Assembly (NCBI GenBank): GCA_947454235.1
Contig: CANGIY010000027.1
Coordinates: 1 to 42,167, forward strand
Length of the DNA: 42,167 nucleotides
Direction: 5' to 3'
DNA from: Chitinophagaceae bacterium
Lineage (GTDB): Bacteria > Bacteroidota > Bacteroidia > Chitinophagales > Chitinophagaceae
Part shown: piece after piece, positions 6,012 through 27,398 of the stretch
Layout: the number at the start of each line of letters is the position of its first letter
Position numbering within the stretch: position 1 is the first letter of the stretch
Program-made: the position numbers and the translations under genes
Notes under the pieces: generated by a model
Told to the model about the DNA's origin: nothing
Databases searched by the model: none
What the model saw: only the letters and a program-made list of their open reading frames with translations

Positions 6012-7478
6012 CTACGCGCTAGCCATTTGCACTTTCTGCATCAGCTCCATCAGGTTCTCTTTATACTCCTGATCAGTATCCATCAGGTTTTCAACCGTTT
6101 GACAAGAGTGAATTACAGTAGTGTGATCGAAGCCGCCAAAGTGGTCTCCAATTGTTTTTAACGACTGTTTAGTGAATTTTTTCGCGAAGTACATCGTAAT
6201 CTGACGAGCCAATACAACCTCACGCTTACGAGTCTTAGTCATCAGTTTCTCGTAAGGAACATGGTAGTAATCACACACCATTTTCTGGATATTCTCAATG
6301 GTCATTTCTCTGGCTGCTGTCTTCACAAAGTTTTTCATCACTTTCTTCGCCAAATCCATGTCAATTTCCTTCTTATTCAATGTAGCCTGAGCAAAAAGCG
6401 CAATCAATGCACCTTCAAGCTCTCTAACATTGGTTTGGATATTGTAAGCGATGTATTTCACAACATCTTCAGGAATCTCTAAACCTTCGTGGCGCATTTT
6501 AACGTGTAAAATAGCCTGGCGTGTTTCAAAATCGGGCGCCTGAATATCAGCATTCAATCCCCAACGGAAACGGCTCAATAAACGCTCCTGCATACCTTCC
6601 ATATCGCGTGGTGCGGTATCGGAAGTAAGTATGATTTGTTTTCCGCTTTGGTGCAGGTGATTGAAGATAGCAAAGAACACATCTTGTGTTTTCACTGCCG
6701 ACACGAACAAATGAATATCGTCCATAATCAACACATCAATCAACTGATAGAAGTGAATGAAGTCATTTACTTCATTGTTCTTAGCATGTTCAATGAACTG
6801 GTTGATGAATTTTTCAGCACTAACATATAATACAGTCTTGTTAGGGTGCTGCCTGCGCACTTCGTTACCTATTGCTTGTACAAGGTGCGTTTTACCCCAA
6901 CCTACTCCACCGAAGATTACCAACGGGTTGAAAGCAGTAGCCCCCGGCTTTTGCGCCACATGAAAACCAGCAGAACGAGCAACGCGGTTACAATCGCCTT
7001 CTACATAGTTATCGAACGTGTAGTTGGTGTTTAATTGCGGGTCAATCTGCATGCGCTTGAGACCCGGAATTGCGTAAGGAGTTTTGATGTTGTACGGGTC
7101 ATCCCATTTTAATGGCATGTCCACATAGTTATTTTCTTTTGTTGGCTTGGTTTGGGTGTTACCAGGCACATTAACAGCTGCTGGTTTGCGATTTGCAGCC
7201 GAGCTTTCCATTAATATACGGTACTCAAGCTTCGCAGGTTGACCCAAAACTCTTTTGATAGTTTTACCCAATAATTCCACATAGTGCTCTTCAAGCCACT
7301 CGTAAAAAAACTGGCTTGGCACCTGAAGGGTAATAACGTTTCCATTCAAGCCAACAGCCTTAATTGGTTCAAACCATGTCTGGTAGGTGCGCCAGTTCAC
7401 GTTATCCTTAATTATTATCAGGCATTTCTCCCAAAGCTGCTGTACGTCTGAACTTGTGTTATTGTTATTGAATTCCAT
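6012..7478 (-). CDS. dnaA: Chromosomal replication initiator protein DnaA
   Basis: Initiates chromosome replication by binding DnaA boxes and unwinding oriC. It is 488 residues, normal for the family. The N-terminal domain I (LWEKCLIIIKDNVNWRTYQT) binds the helicase loader or helicase. A variable linker rich in Asn, Lys and Pro follows. Domain III is the AAA+ core, with Walker A GGVGWGKTHL near residue 193, Walker B LIMDDIHLF and sensor block RLLSRFRWGL. Domain IV ends the protein with the DNA-binding signature GGFDHTTVIHSCQTV. The Trp in the P-loop (GVGWGKT), where many DnaA proteins have Leu, is read directly and should be tolerated. A 750-bp non-coding stretch lies upstream and may contain the origin. 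Confidence 0.98.
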   Translation of the reverse strand: MEFNNNNTSSDVQQLWEKCLIIIKDNVNWRTYQTWFEPIKAVGLNGNVITLQVPSQFFYEWLEEHYVELLGKTIKRVLGQPAKLEYRILMESSAANRKPAAVNVPGNTQTKPTKENNYVDMPLKWDDPYNIKTPYAIPGLKRMQIDPQLNTNYTFDNYVEGDCNRVARSAGFHVAQKPGATAFNPLVIFGGVGWGKTHLVQAIGNEVRRQHPNKTVLYVSAEKFINQFIEHAKNNEVNDFIHFYQLIDVLIMDDIHLFVSAVKTQDVFFAIFNHLHQSGKQIILTSDTAPRDMEGMQERLLSRFRWGLNADIQAPDFETRQAILHVKMRHEGLEIPEDVVKYIAYNIQTNVRELEGALIALFAQATLNKKEIDMDLAKKVMKNFVKTAAREMTIENIQKMVCDYYHVPYEKLMTKTRKREVVLARQITMYFAKKFTKQSLKTIGDHFGGFDHTTVIHSCQTVENLMDTDQEYKENLMELMQKVQMASA

Positions 7479-8187: not shown

Positions 8188-8207
8188 ACTCCGTCAAAAA
8201 ACGGAGT
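8188..8207 (-). terminator. Intrinsic terminator of the 75-residue gene
   Basis: Stem ACTCCGT/ACGGAGT with a six-base loop, followed on the minus strand by TTTTTTG. It lies 19 bp after the stop of the small minus-strand gene and supports that gene being a real transcription unit. Confidence 0.8.
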
Positions 8208-8226: not shown

Positions 8227-8454
8227 CTATGTAACCGCTGATTTCACATTATAATGTGGATTTCCATGCACCCACACATACTGTCGCTCAGTCGCATTTC
8301 GGGAATACACACTTCCCCTGCTGTAATTGCCTGACTTTCGTGACAAAGTAATATCCATTGAGCCGAAGTTTGGGATTTTAGAAAGCGATGCTTCCCAAAT
8401 ATTCATATTGTATGTTACCTGATTGTGGTTCCGTGCGCTGTTCTGAGTTTTCAT
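8227..8454 (-). CDS. Orphan 75-residue protein under an iteron-type promoter
   Basis: I recognise no family. The protein is polar, rich in Asn, Ser and Tyr, with no signal peptide or membrane segment. It begins MKTQNSARNHNQVTYNMNIW. Two things support it as real. A strong terminator lies 19 bp after its stop. A distinctive promoter region upstream (8518-8607) has three ACCG-type half-sites on a 20-bp pitch and a TAACTTGC element, giving a predicted leader of about 57 nt. The same promoter layout recurs at 27.1 kb. The role is unknown. Control by a transcription factor that binds direct repeats is inferred. Confidence 0.55.
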   Translation of the reverse strand: MKTQNSARNHNQVTYNMNIWEASLSKIPNFGSMDITLSRKSGNYSRGSVYSRNATERQYVWVHGNPHYNVKSAVT

Positions 8455-8517: not shown

Positions 8518-8607
8518 GCAAGTTACAGCTCATTGACAGGTGCTACCAAATTAACTTCATTAACGGTCGTAAAACTTCACTATCGGTGCTAATTAAGCAC
8601 CATCGGT
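8518..8607 (-). promoter_or_regulatory. Tandem half-site operator and promoter (copy 1)
   Basis: On the minus strand three half-sites start at 8607 (ACCGATGGTG), 8587 (ACCGATAGTGAAG) and 8567 (ACCGTTAATGAAG), each exactly 20 bp apart. The element TAACTTGC (8525 to 8518) starts 42 bp after the last half-site start. The region at 27102-27171 has the same layout. The half-sites resemble the published consensus for LytTR-domain regulators, which also bind direct repeats about two helical turns apart. The regulator itself is not identified. Confidence 0.6.
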
Positions 8608-8683: not shown

Positions 8684-9319
8684 GTGAATACAACTGAAAT
8701 AATTGACGCGGTTAGCAAGGGAATAGGCATAGGGCTTTTTATGGCTGTTTCAGTAGGACCCACCCTGTTTGCTGTCATCAAGTACAGTATTGGAAATAGC
8801 TACAAAGCCGGTATCGCCTTCGTACTTGGAGTTTCAGTTTCAGACATATTATATGTATCGGTCGCTAACTTAGCTGCTTCAGTGCTAATTCGCTTGAATA
8901 GCTATGCAACTAATATTGCTTTTGCAGGTTCGGCAATCTTATTTCTGGTTGGGCTACTGGGATTGGTTAAAAAAATCAAACCCAAACGCCCAAAAACTGA
9001 TGTTCAAATTATATCAGGTGCTCAATACCTAAAAATTGGTGCGGGTGGCTTTATAATAAATACCATCAATCCCGGAGTTATAGTCAGTTGGCTTACAGCG
9101 GTGTCGGCTACAGCGGCGCACAGTGGCAGCTACAGGGCACTACTTTACACCGTTTGCCTTGTACTAATATTATCTATCGACTTTATGAAGGTCTTTTTGG
9201 CTGAACGAATCAGATTAATGCTCACACCCCGAAGAATCATCTACACTCAACGCTTTTCTTCGGCAGTAATCATGGTGCTGGGGCTGTTGCTGTTTTTCTC
9301 TACATTATATAAGCACTAG
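8684..9319 (+). CDS. LysE/RhtB-family amino-acid exporter
   Basis: A 211-residue inner-membrane protein of about six helices. It carries the family's first-helix signature GIGIGLFMAVSVGPTLFAVIK and the second block KAGIAFVLGVSVSDILY. A cytoplasmic basic loop (KKIKPKRPKTD) precedes the block GGFIINTINPGVIVSWL, which corresponds to the usual N-P-x-x-x-x-W motif. The family exports amino acids or related small amines by proton exchange; the substrate cannot be read. The start is GTG at 8684, since the overlapping ATG at 8682 is followed at once by a stop in its frame. The gene converges on the metallo-hydrolase gene with a 3-bp gap. An unusual inverted-repeat region lies upstream. Confidence 0.85.
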   Translation: MNTTEIIDAVSKGIGIGLFMAVSVGPTLFAVIKYSIGNSYKAGIAFVLGVSVSDILYVSVANLAASVLIRLNSYATNIAFAGSAILFLVGLLGLVKKIKPKRPKTDVQIISGAQYLKIGAGGFIINTINPGVIVSWLTAVSATAAHSGSYRALLYTVCLVLILSIDFMKVFLAERIRLMLTPRRIIYTQRFSSAVIMVLGLLLFFSTLYKH

Positions 9320-25723: not shown

Positions 25724-26407
25724 ATGATCGCGATTGGCTTTTATTTATTGACTGCGTTGTGTGTCGTTTTGGTGTCGCTGCTGCTAGCCAGCAGTGAAAA
25801 TAAACCTTTTGAAACCAAACGATTTGGAATTGCCCTTACAGTACAACTGGGTTGGCTTGCCTATATTTTCTTTATTTCAAACGCCGGACTCACTGCCGTT
25901 CCCGGCATACCACCTCGCATTGTTGAATTCCTGGTTGCACCTGCTTTAATTGGCATCATTTTGTTCAATACACTGAAGTCAACCAGTCATATAATTGTTC
26001 AAACACCACTCAAAAACATTGTTTTACTTCAGTCATTTAGAATTGTAGTAGAAATATTGTTGTTCCTAAGTGCGAAAGCATTGATTGTTCCAAAGGAAGT
26101 AACATTTGAAGGGAATAACTACGATATTGTTATAGGCATTACTGCACCAATAATTTCAATATTGATAGTGCAAAACAAGATTTCACCAATGCTGTTTAGA
26201 ATCTGGAACTTTGCCGGCCTCGCTACGCTTGCAATTGTTGTGACAACATTCATGGCTAAATTGTTTTTACCAACTTTCAAGTTGCCCAATGCCGACGCTA
26301 TGATTGCGCAATTTGGAAATGCACCCTTTACTTTTTTACCGGGCTACCTGATGCCACTAGCTGTAGGGCTCACCATTATGGCACTTAAAAAGTCTAAATC
26401 AATTTGA
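25724..26407 (+). CDS. Multi-pass membrane protein, unknown function
   Basis: A 227-residue protein with about six or seven hydrophobic segments, starting at the N-terminus (IGFYLLTALCVVLVSLLLA). Short basic loops (NKPFETKR, KKSKSI at the end) suggest an inner-membrane protein. I recognise no family. It follows the AraC-family gene on the same strand, so it may be under its control. Its last 9 bases overlap the convergent lipoprotein gene. Confidence 0.65.
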   Translation: MIAIGFYLLTALCVVLVSLLLASSENKPFETKRFGIALTVQLGWLAYIFFISNAGLTAVPGIPPRIVEFLVAPALIGIILFNTLKSTSHIIVQTPLKNIVLLQSFRIVVEILLFLSAKALIVPKEVTFEGNNYDIVIGITAPIISILIVQNKISPMLFRIWNFAGLATLAIVVTTFMAKLFLPTFKLPNADAMIAQFGNAPFTFLPGYLMPLAVGLTIMALKKSKSI

Positions 26408-26944
26408 TTTTTCGCCTATCATCTCCTTTAGGCGACGAACATCGTTGAGGCACACACGTTTCTCAAAATCAAACTTCTTATTGTCAGGATCCATGTTCTT
26501 ACCATCAGGCATTGTCCATTGAATCATTCTTTCATGGTAAAAATAGTAATGACTGACTGTCACCTTTGTTTTAGTAGGGTCATAGGCAACGGTATCACTA
26601 AGCTGCTTCGCTATTTCCGGGGTTATCGTTGTAGGGCGATTGAATTTGTACACTGTTTTTCTGATGTATTCAACATCTTCACCATCGAAAAAGAACTCAT
26701 CCATTTTACGCTCTGACGGCGTTTGTGACTCAACCACGGCAAACTTGAGCACTCCGCCCTTGAAATAGCCGGTCAATACATTTGTAAAACCGTCACGAGG
26801 TGAAACATTGATGGTTTTAGGCTGATAAGTAGTGAGTTCGCTTAATGTTTTTTTACAATCGGCTTGAATTGGCTTGATATCATCTTCGGAACAAGAAGCC
26901 AGAAACAGTACTGCGGAAAGCATTAAAACGGAAAGACTGCGCAT
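26399..26944 (-). CDS. Predicted lipoprotein, unknown function
   Basis: 181 residues from MRSLSVLMLSAVLFLASCSEDD, a lipoprotein signal with lipobox LASC (Cys at residue 18). The acidic SEDD after the Cys resembles the export signal of surface-exposed Bacteroidota lipoproteins. The mature part has no recognised domain. An upstream in-frame ATG at 26992 would add 16 residues that spoil the signal peptide and is rejected. Its 3' end overlaps the convergent membrane-protein gene by 9 bp. Confidence 0.7.
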   Translation of the reverse strand: MRSLSVLMLSAVLFLASCSEDDIKPIQADCKKTLSELTTYQPKTINVSPRDGFTNVLTGYFKGGVLKFAVVESQTPSERKMDEFFFDGEDVEYIRKTVYKFNRPTTITPEIAKQLSDTVAYDPTKTKVTVSHYYFYHERMIQWTMPDGKNMDPDNKKFDFEKRVCLNDVRRLKEMIGEKSN

Positions 26945-27080
26945 AAAAAAGGTTGTTGATGCGAAATTAATCATTACAAAGTTTCTAAGCACTTTCTATT
27001 TTCAATTCGTTTACGCCTCAACGCAATAAATCAAACTTTAATATAACGACAAATAACACAACAATAAATTGTCAATATCT

Positions 27081-27171
27081 AACGTTTAATTCATGAAAAA
27101 TACCGTTAGTGAAAAAAAACGACCGTTAGTGAAGTTTTTCAGGTACTATCGGTAGCCTGTTTTTACCTTGC
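27081..27171 (+). promoter_or_regulatory. Tandem half-site operator and promoter (copy 2)
   Basis: Half-sites ACCGTTAGTGAA start at 27102 and 27122 (20-bp pitch). A degenerate one (AACGTTTAA) is at 27081 and an inverted one (ACTATCGGT) at 27145-27153. The element TACCTTGC starts at 27164, 42 bp after the last direct half-site start, exactly as in the copy at 8518-8607. It points towards the terminator at 27303-27332. Confidence 0.6.
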
Positions 27172-27177
27172 GGAGGC

Positions 27178-27332
27178 ATTTGCAACCTTGGAATACGAGC
27201 TGTTTTGTGGTGAGCATAAAAGCAAGTGCATTTCGTGTTTTGAGCCTTTAATAAATGTCGACTTATTTATACCTCATCACAGAAAATAATACCCCACAAA
27301 AAAGCGGTTTCGATTGAAACCGCTTTTTTGAT
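27178..27332 (+). ncRNA. Candidate structured RNA (about 150 nt)
   Basis: A unit bounded by the promoter at 27164-27171 and the terminator at 27303-27332, with no gene in it. A long-range 9-bp stem can form between TGTGGTGAG (27206-27214) and CTCATCACA (27273-27281), with one G-U pair. Near-palindromic AATAAATGTCGACTTATT lies inside it. The only open frame is a 23-codon one from a TTG after GGAGG, unlikely but not excluded. No known RNA family is recognised. Confidence 0.35.
27297..27332. terminator. Bidirectional intrinsic terminator
   Basis: Stem AAGCGGTTTC/GAAACCGCTT with loop GATT, flanked by A6 on the left and T6 on the right. It can stop transcription from both sides: the candidate RNA on the plus strand and the small lipoprotein gene on the minus strand. 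Confidence 0.85.
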
Positions 27333-27398
27333 TGAAAACACATAATAAAATACCCATCGCATTGAAACACGATGGGGTATAAATATGGAGTAAAAAAC

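Follow-up and report, generated by a model that had tools for sequence, protein, structure and literature searches.

A candidate LytTR-type regulon in a genus of Chitinophagaceae: paired repeats in fixed register with housekeeping-like promoters

Two unrelated intergenic regions on one contig of a Chitinophagaceae bacterium carry short direct repeats at the same pitch, each followed at the same distance by a promoter-like element. Do both regions answer to a single transcription factor, and if so, which factor would read them and what would it control? The stretch of DNA analysed (the window) comprises 42,167 nucleotides. A first-pass annotation of its sequence had noticed the shared geometry, considered it unlikely to be chance and suggested one activator, tentatively of LytTR type, together with a variant -7 element. 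We examined the two sites, their relatives in the genome and genus, the promoters behind them, the possible regulators and the products downstream.

Paired boxes in the window, the genome and the genus

Copy 1 lies on the minus strand. Its core units, located as in copy 2 by pattern scans of the window and the genome, are ACCGATAGTG (8578..8587) and ACCGTTAATG (8558..8567), and a third, outer half-site, ACCGATGGTG, precedes them (8598..8607). The three starts are 20 bp apart and the -7 element TAACTTGC (8518..8525), whose register is conserved, follows 42 bp after the last of them. Between the last unit and the -7 element lies a -33-like TTTGG (8546..8550), at a position conserved in the alignment of sites. 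Copy 2, on the plus strand, has ACCGTTAGTG twice at a distance of 20 bp (27102..27111 and 27122..27131), with TACCTTGC (27164..27171) in the same conserved register, again 42 bp after the second unit. The positions in both regions thus agree with the first-pass annotation. The outer half-site of copy 1 is real but unusual: a unit at that phase occurs in three of 75 aligned sites, and we discarded it as a general feature on that count.

The arrangement was compared with chance expectation. The half-site ACCGNTARTG occurs four times in the window against a shuffle mean of 0.49, and none of 100 shuffles reached four. Allowing up to three mismatches, the paired pattern matched the window four times where 0.03 matches were expected; two of these are the sites, and the other two arise at the same places from a reading shifted by 20 bp. 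Across the 4.17-Mb genome, the strict pair was found at exactly the two window places and nowhere in the reversed control. The view that identical spacing would hardly arise by accident is upheld by the window shuffles, the genome scan and the empty controls. For a chance likeness of two intergenic regions we found nothing in favour after the genome scan, and with reversed controls at zero in the strict-pair, three-mismatch and genus scans we give it negligible weight.

Further copies, which the first-pass annotation had proposed to look for, are indeed present. The paired site with up to three mismatches has 14 copies in the same genome (reversed control 0), and none of the 14, in the loci fetched, overlaps an ATG-initiated ORF of at least 100 aa. 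A wider search of this genome returned 25 matches against six in its reversed control. Alignment of 69 sites gave the consensus ACCGTTCGTGAAGTTTTnCG-ACCGTTCGTGAAGTTTwTTTGG, from which the window copies differ in having A as the seventh base of each core unit. The wider search also brought out variant boxes at four loci of the same genome (L173, L174, L185 and L194), with a first unit that ends in TTCC, not TGAA. A TAnnTT stands at +61 or +62 in three of these and at +67 in L173. They possibly form a second class of site.

The boxes are a feature of the genus. With at most one mismatch, ACCGTTNGTGAA-N8-ACCGTTNGTG was found in all 11 genus genomes (99 sites, 1 to 20 in each; control 0) and in none of 48 genomes from 47 other genera. 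The predicted conservation in relatives is thus confirmed inside the genus and fails outside it. A looser pattern matched 3-23 times per genus genome, with 0-1 matches in the reversed control except in G005 (6 versus 8 matches) and G007 (3 versus 4), and 0-2 times elsewhere, where the reversed control was of the same order. The 20-bp pitch was fixed beforehand in every site search except a scan of pitches from 19 to 22 bp, in which nearly all genus matches fell at 20. One genome for each of 84,980 species was also scanned, yielding 48 stretches from Taibaiella, Flavipsychrobacter and Chitinophagaceae or Bacteroidetes metagenome genomes, with one match in Hymenobacter. This last (L069, Hymenobacter duratus) is a GC-rich tandem repeat and was left out of all site counts.

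Such a distribution might also be produced by copies of a dispersed repeat or mobile element, and two loci of the window's genome (L004 and L012) do have long flanks in common, while seven pairs of sites have look-alike spacers. Against this, little is conserved outside the units, TTTGG and TAnnTT, and the spacers of 75 sites fall into 68 clusters, which argues for binding sites rather than copied repeats. We consider a repeat origin very improbable. The 20-bp unit is itself informative, with only A or T at positions 13-16 and CG at 18-19 before unit 2; with its spacer conserved in this way, the site shows more conservation than a bare pair of half-sites would need. The site family is real and genus-wide and, judged by its conservation, appears functional. 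Both window sites very probably belong to the regulon of a single factor.

Promoter register and candidate regulators

The distance from the box to the promoter is nearly constant. Of 75 aligned sites, 71 have a TAnnTT that starts 41-43 bp past the second unit, against a background of 0.44 sites per offset; counted from the start of the first unit, the distance is 62 bp in 55 sites, 61 bp in 14 and 63 bp in two. The count was made on 75 distinct sites with 100 bp downstream, none counted twice; some of these loci had been fetched for other purposes, and some come from genomes that were not ranked in the genus. TAnnTT was absent from every search pattern used. In 43 of the 75 sites a TTTGG is found 17 bp downstream of the second unit's start, and TTTG occupies the -33 place in 45. 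The fixed register suggests that a single factor, presumably activating, is placed upstream of a promoter of Bacteroidota type. In line with this, the proposal of a single shared factor with fixed geometry is borne out by 14 sites in the window's genome, 99 in the genus and a promoter in register in nearly all of those aligned.

The housekeeping (sigma-ABfr) consensus of Bacteroidota is described as TAnnTTTG at -7 with TTTG near -33 (PMC7366714). Measured against it, the sites keep TAnnTT in register in the same 71 cases and deviate in the last two bases. The first-pass annotation had proposed a special -7 element, TAmCTTGC. This does not stand as a distinct element: in the 69-site alignment TAnnTT alone is strong, the base after it is mixed, and the next is only mildly C-preferring (31 of 68). 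We read the -7 element as a relaxed Bacteroidota TAnnTTTG, from a housekeeping promoter that would have been made activator-dependent. On the assumption that it spans -11 to -4, the two ACCG motifs would have their G near -50 and -70.

The nature of the factor was then considered. LytTR sites are described as pairs of 9-bp direct repeats with 10-13 bp between them, which in most cases lie upstream of -35 and serve activation (PMC11347149), and the 20-bp pitch seen here corresponds to 9-mers 11 bp apart. For AlgR, a LytTR regulator of Pseudomonas aeruginosa, the binding consensus is given as CCGTTCGTC, which CCGTTCGTG matches in 8 of 9 positions with one base different; AlgR sites as described there differ in that they need not be direct repeats with a constant spacing, and some are a long way from the promoter (PMC4064291). 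LytTR sites are reported to share no common consensus (PMC4847170), so the AlgR-like half-site adds little weight. The LytTR assignment of the first-pass annotation thus holds as a similarity, in that half-site and layout fit the LytTR literature (PMC4064291, PMC11347149). By both features the boxes would belong to the LytTR-site family, and the regulator is probably of LytTR type. A search of open-access literature for ACCGTTCGTC returned no AlgR paper, by title, among the matches listed.

Four LytTR genes are present in the window's genome. One, at C4:41183-41914, lies behind a PF06580 histidine kinase and has orthologues in all ten other genus genomes (69-79% identity). The C1:543044 type, with its gene at 543044-543850, likewise has orthologues in all ten (68-74% identity). 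Orthology was assigned by best hit, and some of the genomes are incomplete. Both types therefore occur wherever the box occurs (11 of 11 genus genomes each), and the presence profile alone does not choose between them. The remaining two were rejected: the C2:323773 type has a close orthologue in only three of the ten other genus genomes, and nothing in them exceeds 51% identity to the C12:16708 type.

The two remaining types differ in gene neighbourhood. In 7 of the 11 genus genomes, the C4-type gene has a box with 0-2 substitutions on its 3' side. In all seven, a gene for an RRM protein stands between the LytTR gene and the box, and the box heads a transcript convergent with the LytTR gene. 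Pfam confirmed the RRM in four of four neighbours tested and the kinase in three of three. This linkage of LytTR operon, RRM gene and box may represent one inherited event. No box was seen before the LytTR operon in the little upstream sequence covered. Outside the genus, C4-type orthologues reach 66% identity with a similar DNA-binding region, and in their genomes the box was absent under the patterns tried. At the C4-type locus of the window's own genome, no box was seen where the seven sister genomes have the RRM gene and box-led transcript; an NHL-repeat gene (L042:1798-3213, minus) converges on the LytTR gene there.

The box could instead be read by the C1:543044-type regulator, whose presence in every genus genome fits equally well. 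However, no box with up to two substitutions was found in its fetched neighbourhoods in the 11 genomes, several of which end at contig ends, whereas the C4 type has a box nearby in seven. We think the C1:543044 type unlikely to be the reader. The LytS/LytTR pair on contig C4 is the best candidate, and we put the chances that the C4-type protein is the regulator at about even.

A different class of protein was also weighed. The same regulon might be driven by an activator outside the LytTR class that likewise uses direct repeats spaced by about two turns; an AraC/XylS-type protein that reads the entire 20-bp unit would be an example. AraC-type sites have a similar pitch, near 21 bp. The informative A/T-only and CG positions between the half-sites would suit a protein that reads the whole unit, and the C4-type orthologues without a box outside the genus also speak for this possibility. 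The information is nevertheless concentrated in ACCGTTnGTGAA, resembling the AlgR site and the LytTR layout, and the box is linked to a LytTR operon in most of the genus. On balance a non-LytTR activator seems improbable, and we retain a LytTR protein as the preferred reading.

Products behind the boxes

Copy 1 precedes the gene for a 75-aa protein (8227..8454, minus), identified from its ORF, homologues and alignment and marked by W-x2-S-x-S-K-x3-F ... T-E-x2-Y-x-W. An intrinsic terminator, an 8-pair stem followed by TTTTT, comes after the gene (8188..8207, minus). Among 59 genomes, the best non-self matches to the protein were in G003 (E 3e-8), G001 (9e-7) and G009 (0.0075), with a further match in G008 (0.115). 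At these four loci the first unit of a box lies 153-174 bp before the start codon, compared with 133 bp in the window. They are the four examined out of 27 non-self matches with E<=1. A box was already known on three of their contigs, and this knowledge is why two of the matches (E 0.0075 and 0.115) were picked. The best homologue (G003 C232) has a box upstream on a contig not previously known to carry one, and its site is one of the four in 75 without TAnnTT in register. Several of the other 23 matches lie inside long ORFs.

Alignment of the five proteins gave eleven invariant columns. Neither the 75-aa protein nor its G001 homologue belongs to a Pfam family, NCBIfam gave nothing above cut-off for the 75-aa protein, and structure prediction for it returned no usable fold (mean pLDDT 46.5). 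We regard these proteins as a putative small-protein family, known to date from five genus genomes. The small gene and copy 1 are flanked on one side by dnaA (6012-7478, minus) and on the other by a gene for a LysE-type transporter (8684-9319, plus; assigned by Pfam). With dnaA as a neighbour, the replication origin may lie in the stretch that precedes it.

Copy 2 precedes a predicted structured small RNA that is apparently undescribed. The predicted RNA is about 155 nt long (27175..27329, plus); a covariance model matches 27204-27336, and the start is placed from the -7 element. Within it lies CTTATTTA (27262..27269, plus), a block conserved in 12 of 12 transcripts compared. Sequence and fold place the probable 3' end at a terminator-like hairpin ending in TTTTTT (27298..27329, plus), which was not listed by a pattern-based terminator scan. 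A divergent lipoprotein-like gene (SCSEDDI; 26399..26992, minus), recognised from its ORF and relatives, serves as a synteny marker. Relatives with 32-38% identity stand divergently beside the RNA gene in G001, G003, G004 and G006, making copy 2 the syntenic counterpart of the RNA locus in those four genomes. A 33-aa ORF (27188-27289) was tentatively rejected as the product of copy 2: it belongs to no family, and related transcripts keep the blocks and pairing and differ in length.

The RNA recurs behind boxes across the genus. The 12 box-led transcripts with CTTATTTA come from 10 of 11 genus genomes, only eight of them having TACCC shortly after the block; no box-led RNA transcript was found in G010 (74% complete). 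A covariance model built from five of the box-led transcripts found matches outside its training set in G001 (E 3e-19), G009 C51 (1e-9), G002 C31 (8e-5) and G002 C17 (0.024). The window RNA matched at E 0.00292 in the genome search and was the sole match, at 27.8 bits, in a search of the window only. Each of these five non-training matches, the window included, lies just downstream of a box, so that nine box-led transcripts match one model. The transcripts of G008 and G009 C15 gave no match and were assigned by position and CTTATTTA only. Among the nine sequences, both partners changed in 22 of 48 pairs, 7 of these being terminator pairs, compared with a shuffle mean of 7.2 and 3-7 in slid controls; the result is favoured by an alignment made to fit the model, which had been trained on five of the nine rows. 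A possible pseudoknot, UACAAGGG/CCCUUGUA, is present in closely related RNAs without variation, and covariation therefore cannot test its pairing.

The model also matched where no box was known, in G011 C32 (E 5e-5, no box) and G006 C11 (1.3e-4), and a second match in the window's genome (C5:11732, E 0.00375) came close to that of the window. Position, synteny and the shared block therefore weigh as much as score in the case for the window RNA. With a cut-off of E<=1, the model had matches in 25 of the 59 genomes, 15 of them outside the genus. Rfam 15 found only two tRNAs in the window, and at E<=5 gave six matches on the nine RNA loci, all below gathering score. As a phrase in open-access literature, ACCGTTCGTGAA matched, by title, another organism's RNAs.

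Other boxes in this genome and the genus precede genes for NHL-repeat and Ig-like (Big_2) proteins, lipoproteins and a 151-aa family without a Pfam match. With Pfam run on few representatives, this gives only an outline of what the regulon contains. Of 76 listed sites, 30 lack an ATG-initiated ORF of 45 aa within 330 bp; at some of them the contig stops too soon, and some others are those that head the RNA. The family of about 151 aa (M-x-NELIKTPKQVK...) follows a box in five genomes including that of the window (L048, L054, L063, L092 and L174), and the one member tested had no Pfam or NCBIfam match. At L007, L062, L070 and L071, box-led lipoprotein-like proteins of about 190 aa have a common start (SC-x-KL ... 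YDL-x2-QTA); the one tested belongs to no Pfam family.

Proposed circuit and known systems

We propose that a response-regulator dimer, most likely of LytTR type, would bind the two ACCGTTnGTGAA direct repeats 20 bp apart, a pitch of two helical turns that would place both on the same face of the DNA. The dimer would sit directly upstream of a housekeeping-type promoter (TTTGG near -33, TAnnTT near -7) and activate transcription through contact with RNA polymerase in the fixed register. It is from this geometry that we infer activation and use of the promoters. In the window the dimer would switch on the small protein (copy 1) and the predicted structured RNA (copy 2). Its outputs at other places in the genome would include a lipoprotein as well as secreted proteins of the NHL-repeat and Ig-like kinds. 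The proposal as a whole, a LytTR-type regulon with the C4 LytS/LytTR pair as best candidate activating both window promoters, seems to us rather likely to be right.

A wider reading is tentative, and we think it rather unlikely. The LytS/LytTR system, the adjacent RRM protein and the adjacent box-led RNA could form one module of the genus, with the RRM protein as partner of the RNA, should the RNA act, and with the same activator controlling surface proteins and the new small-protein family. Such a module would be the Bacteroidota equivalent of AgrA/RNAIII and of RgaR/SpoZ. The RNA model does not match two of the seven LytTR-linked transcripts (G008 and G009), and our confidence in both this module and the main proposal is slightly lower for that reason.

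In open-access literature, to which the search was confined with subscription papers outside its scope, neither a defined LytTR site nor a defined LytTR regulon turned up for Bacteroidota. The regulon is new, of a known general kind and with an unusual set of outputs. Box, promoter register, candidate regulator, RNA and small-protein family can all be read from sequence. Few such circuits have been worked out in the phylum, and this one offers a directly testable activator-promoter pair together with a small-RNA candidate.

Besides AlgR, three systems invite comparison. The output RNA of the AgrA system is RNAIII, and we know of no RRM-protein neighbour in that system; RbpB is an RNA-binding protein of RRM type; RgaR carries a LytTR domain, although the paper on its regulon does not use that term. 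In Staphylococcus aureus, the AgrA repeats are described as lying directly upstream of the promoter, with the promoter-proximal pair centred near -60 (PMC4227749). The boxes resemble them as direct repeats directly before a promoter, and differ in half-site (PMC4227749). A regulatory RNA is among the outputs of AgrA, and a predicted small RNA among those proposed here. RbpB of Bacteroides thetaiotaomicron is reported to bind the small-RNA family FopS/GibS (PMC11697453). It likewise ties an RNA-binding protein to small RNAs in Bacteroidota, the resemblance here being adjacency of RNA and RRM gene alone; the RNA described here differs in having no Rfam match above cut-off and in that its gene often adjoins the RRM gene (PMC11697453).

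RgaR, a VirR-like regulator of Clostridioides difficile, is described as requiring a critical G at -51 and -72, compared with the G of ACCG near -50 and -70 here, the span of the -7 element being assumed (PMC10602386). It belongs to another phylum and reads another half-site; the present family has more sites, several of them before genes for secreted proteins, and here a gene for an RRM protein is often found beside the RNA gene (PMC10602386). Like the regulator proposed here, RgaR has a small regulon and repeats about two turns apart, drives a small RNA (SpoZ) and has a site before a small ORF (PMC10602386). By analogy, the box system appears to be laid out like RgaR/SpoZ.
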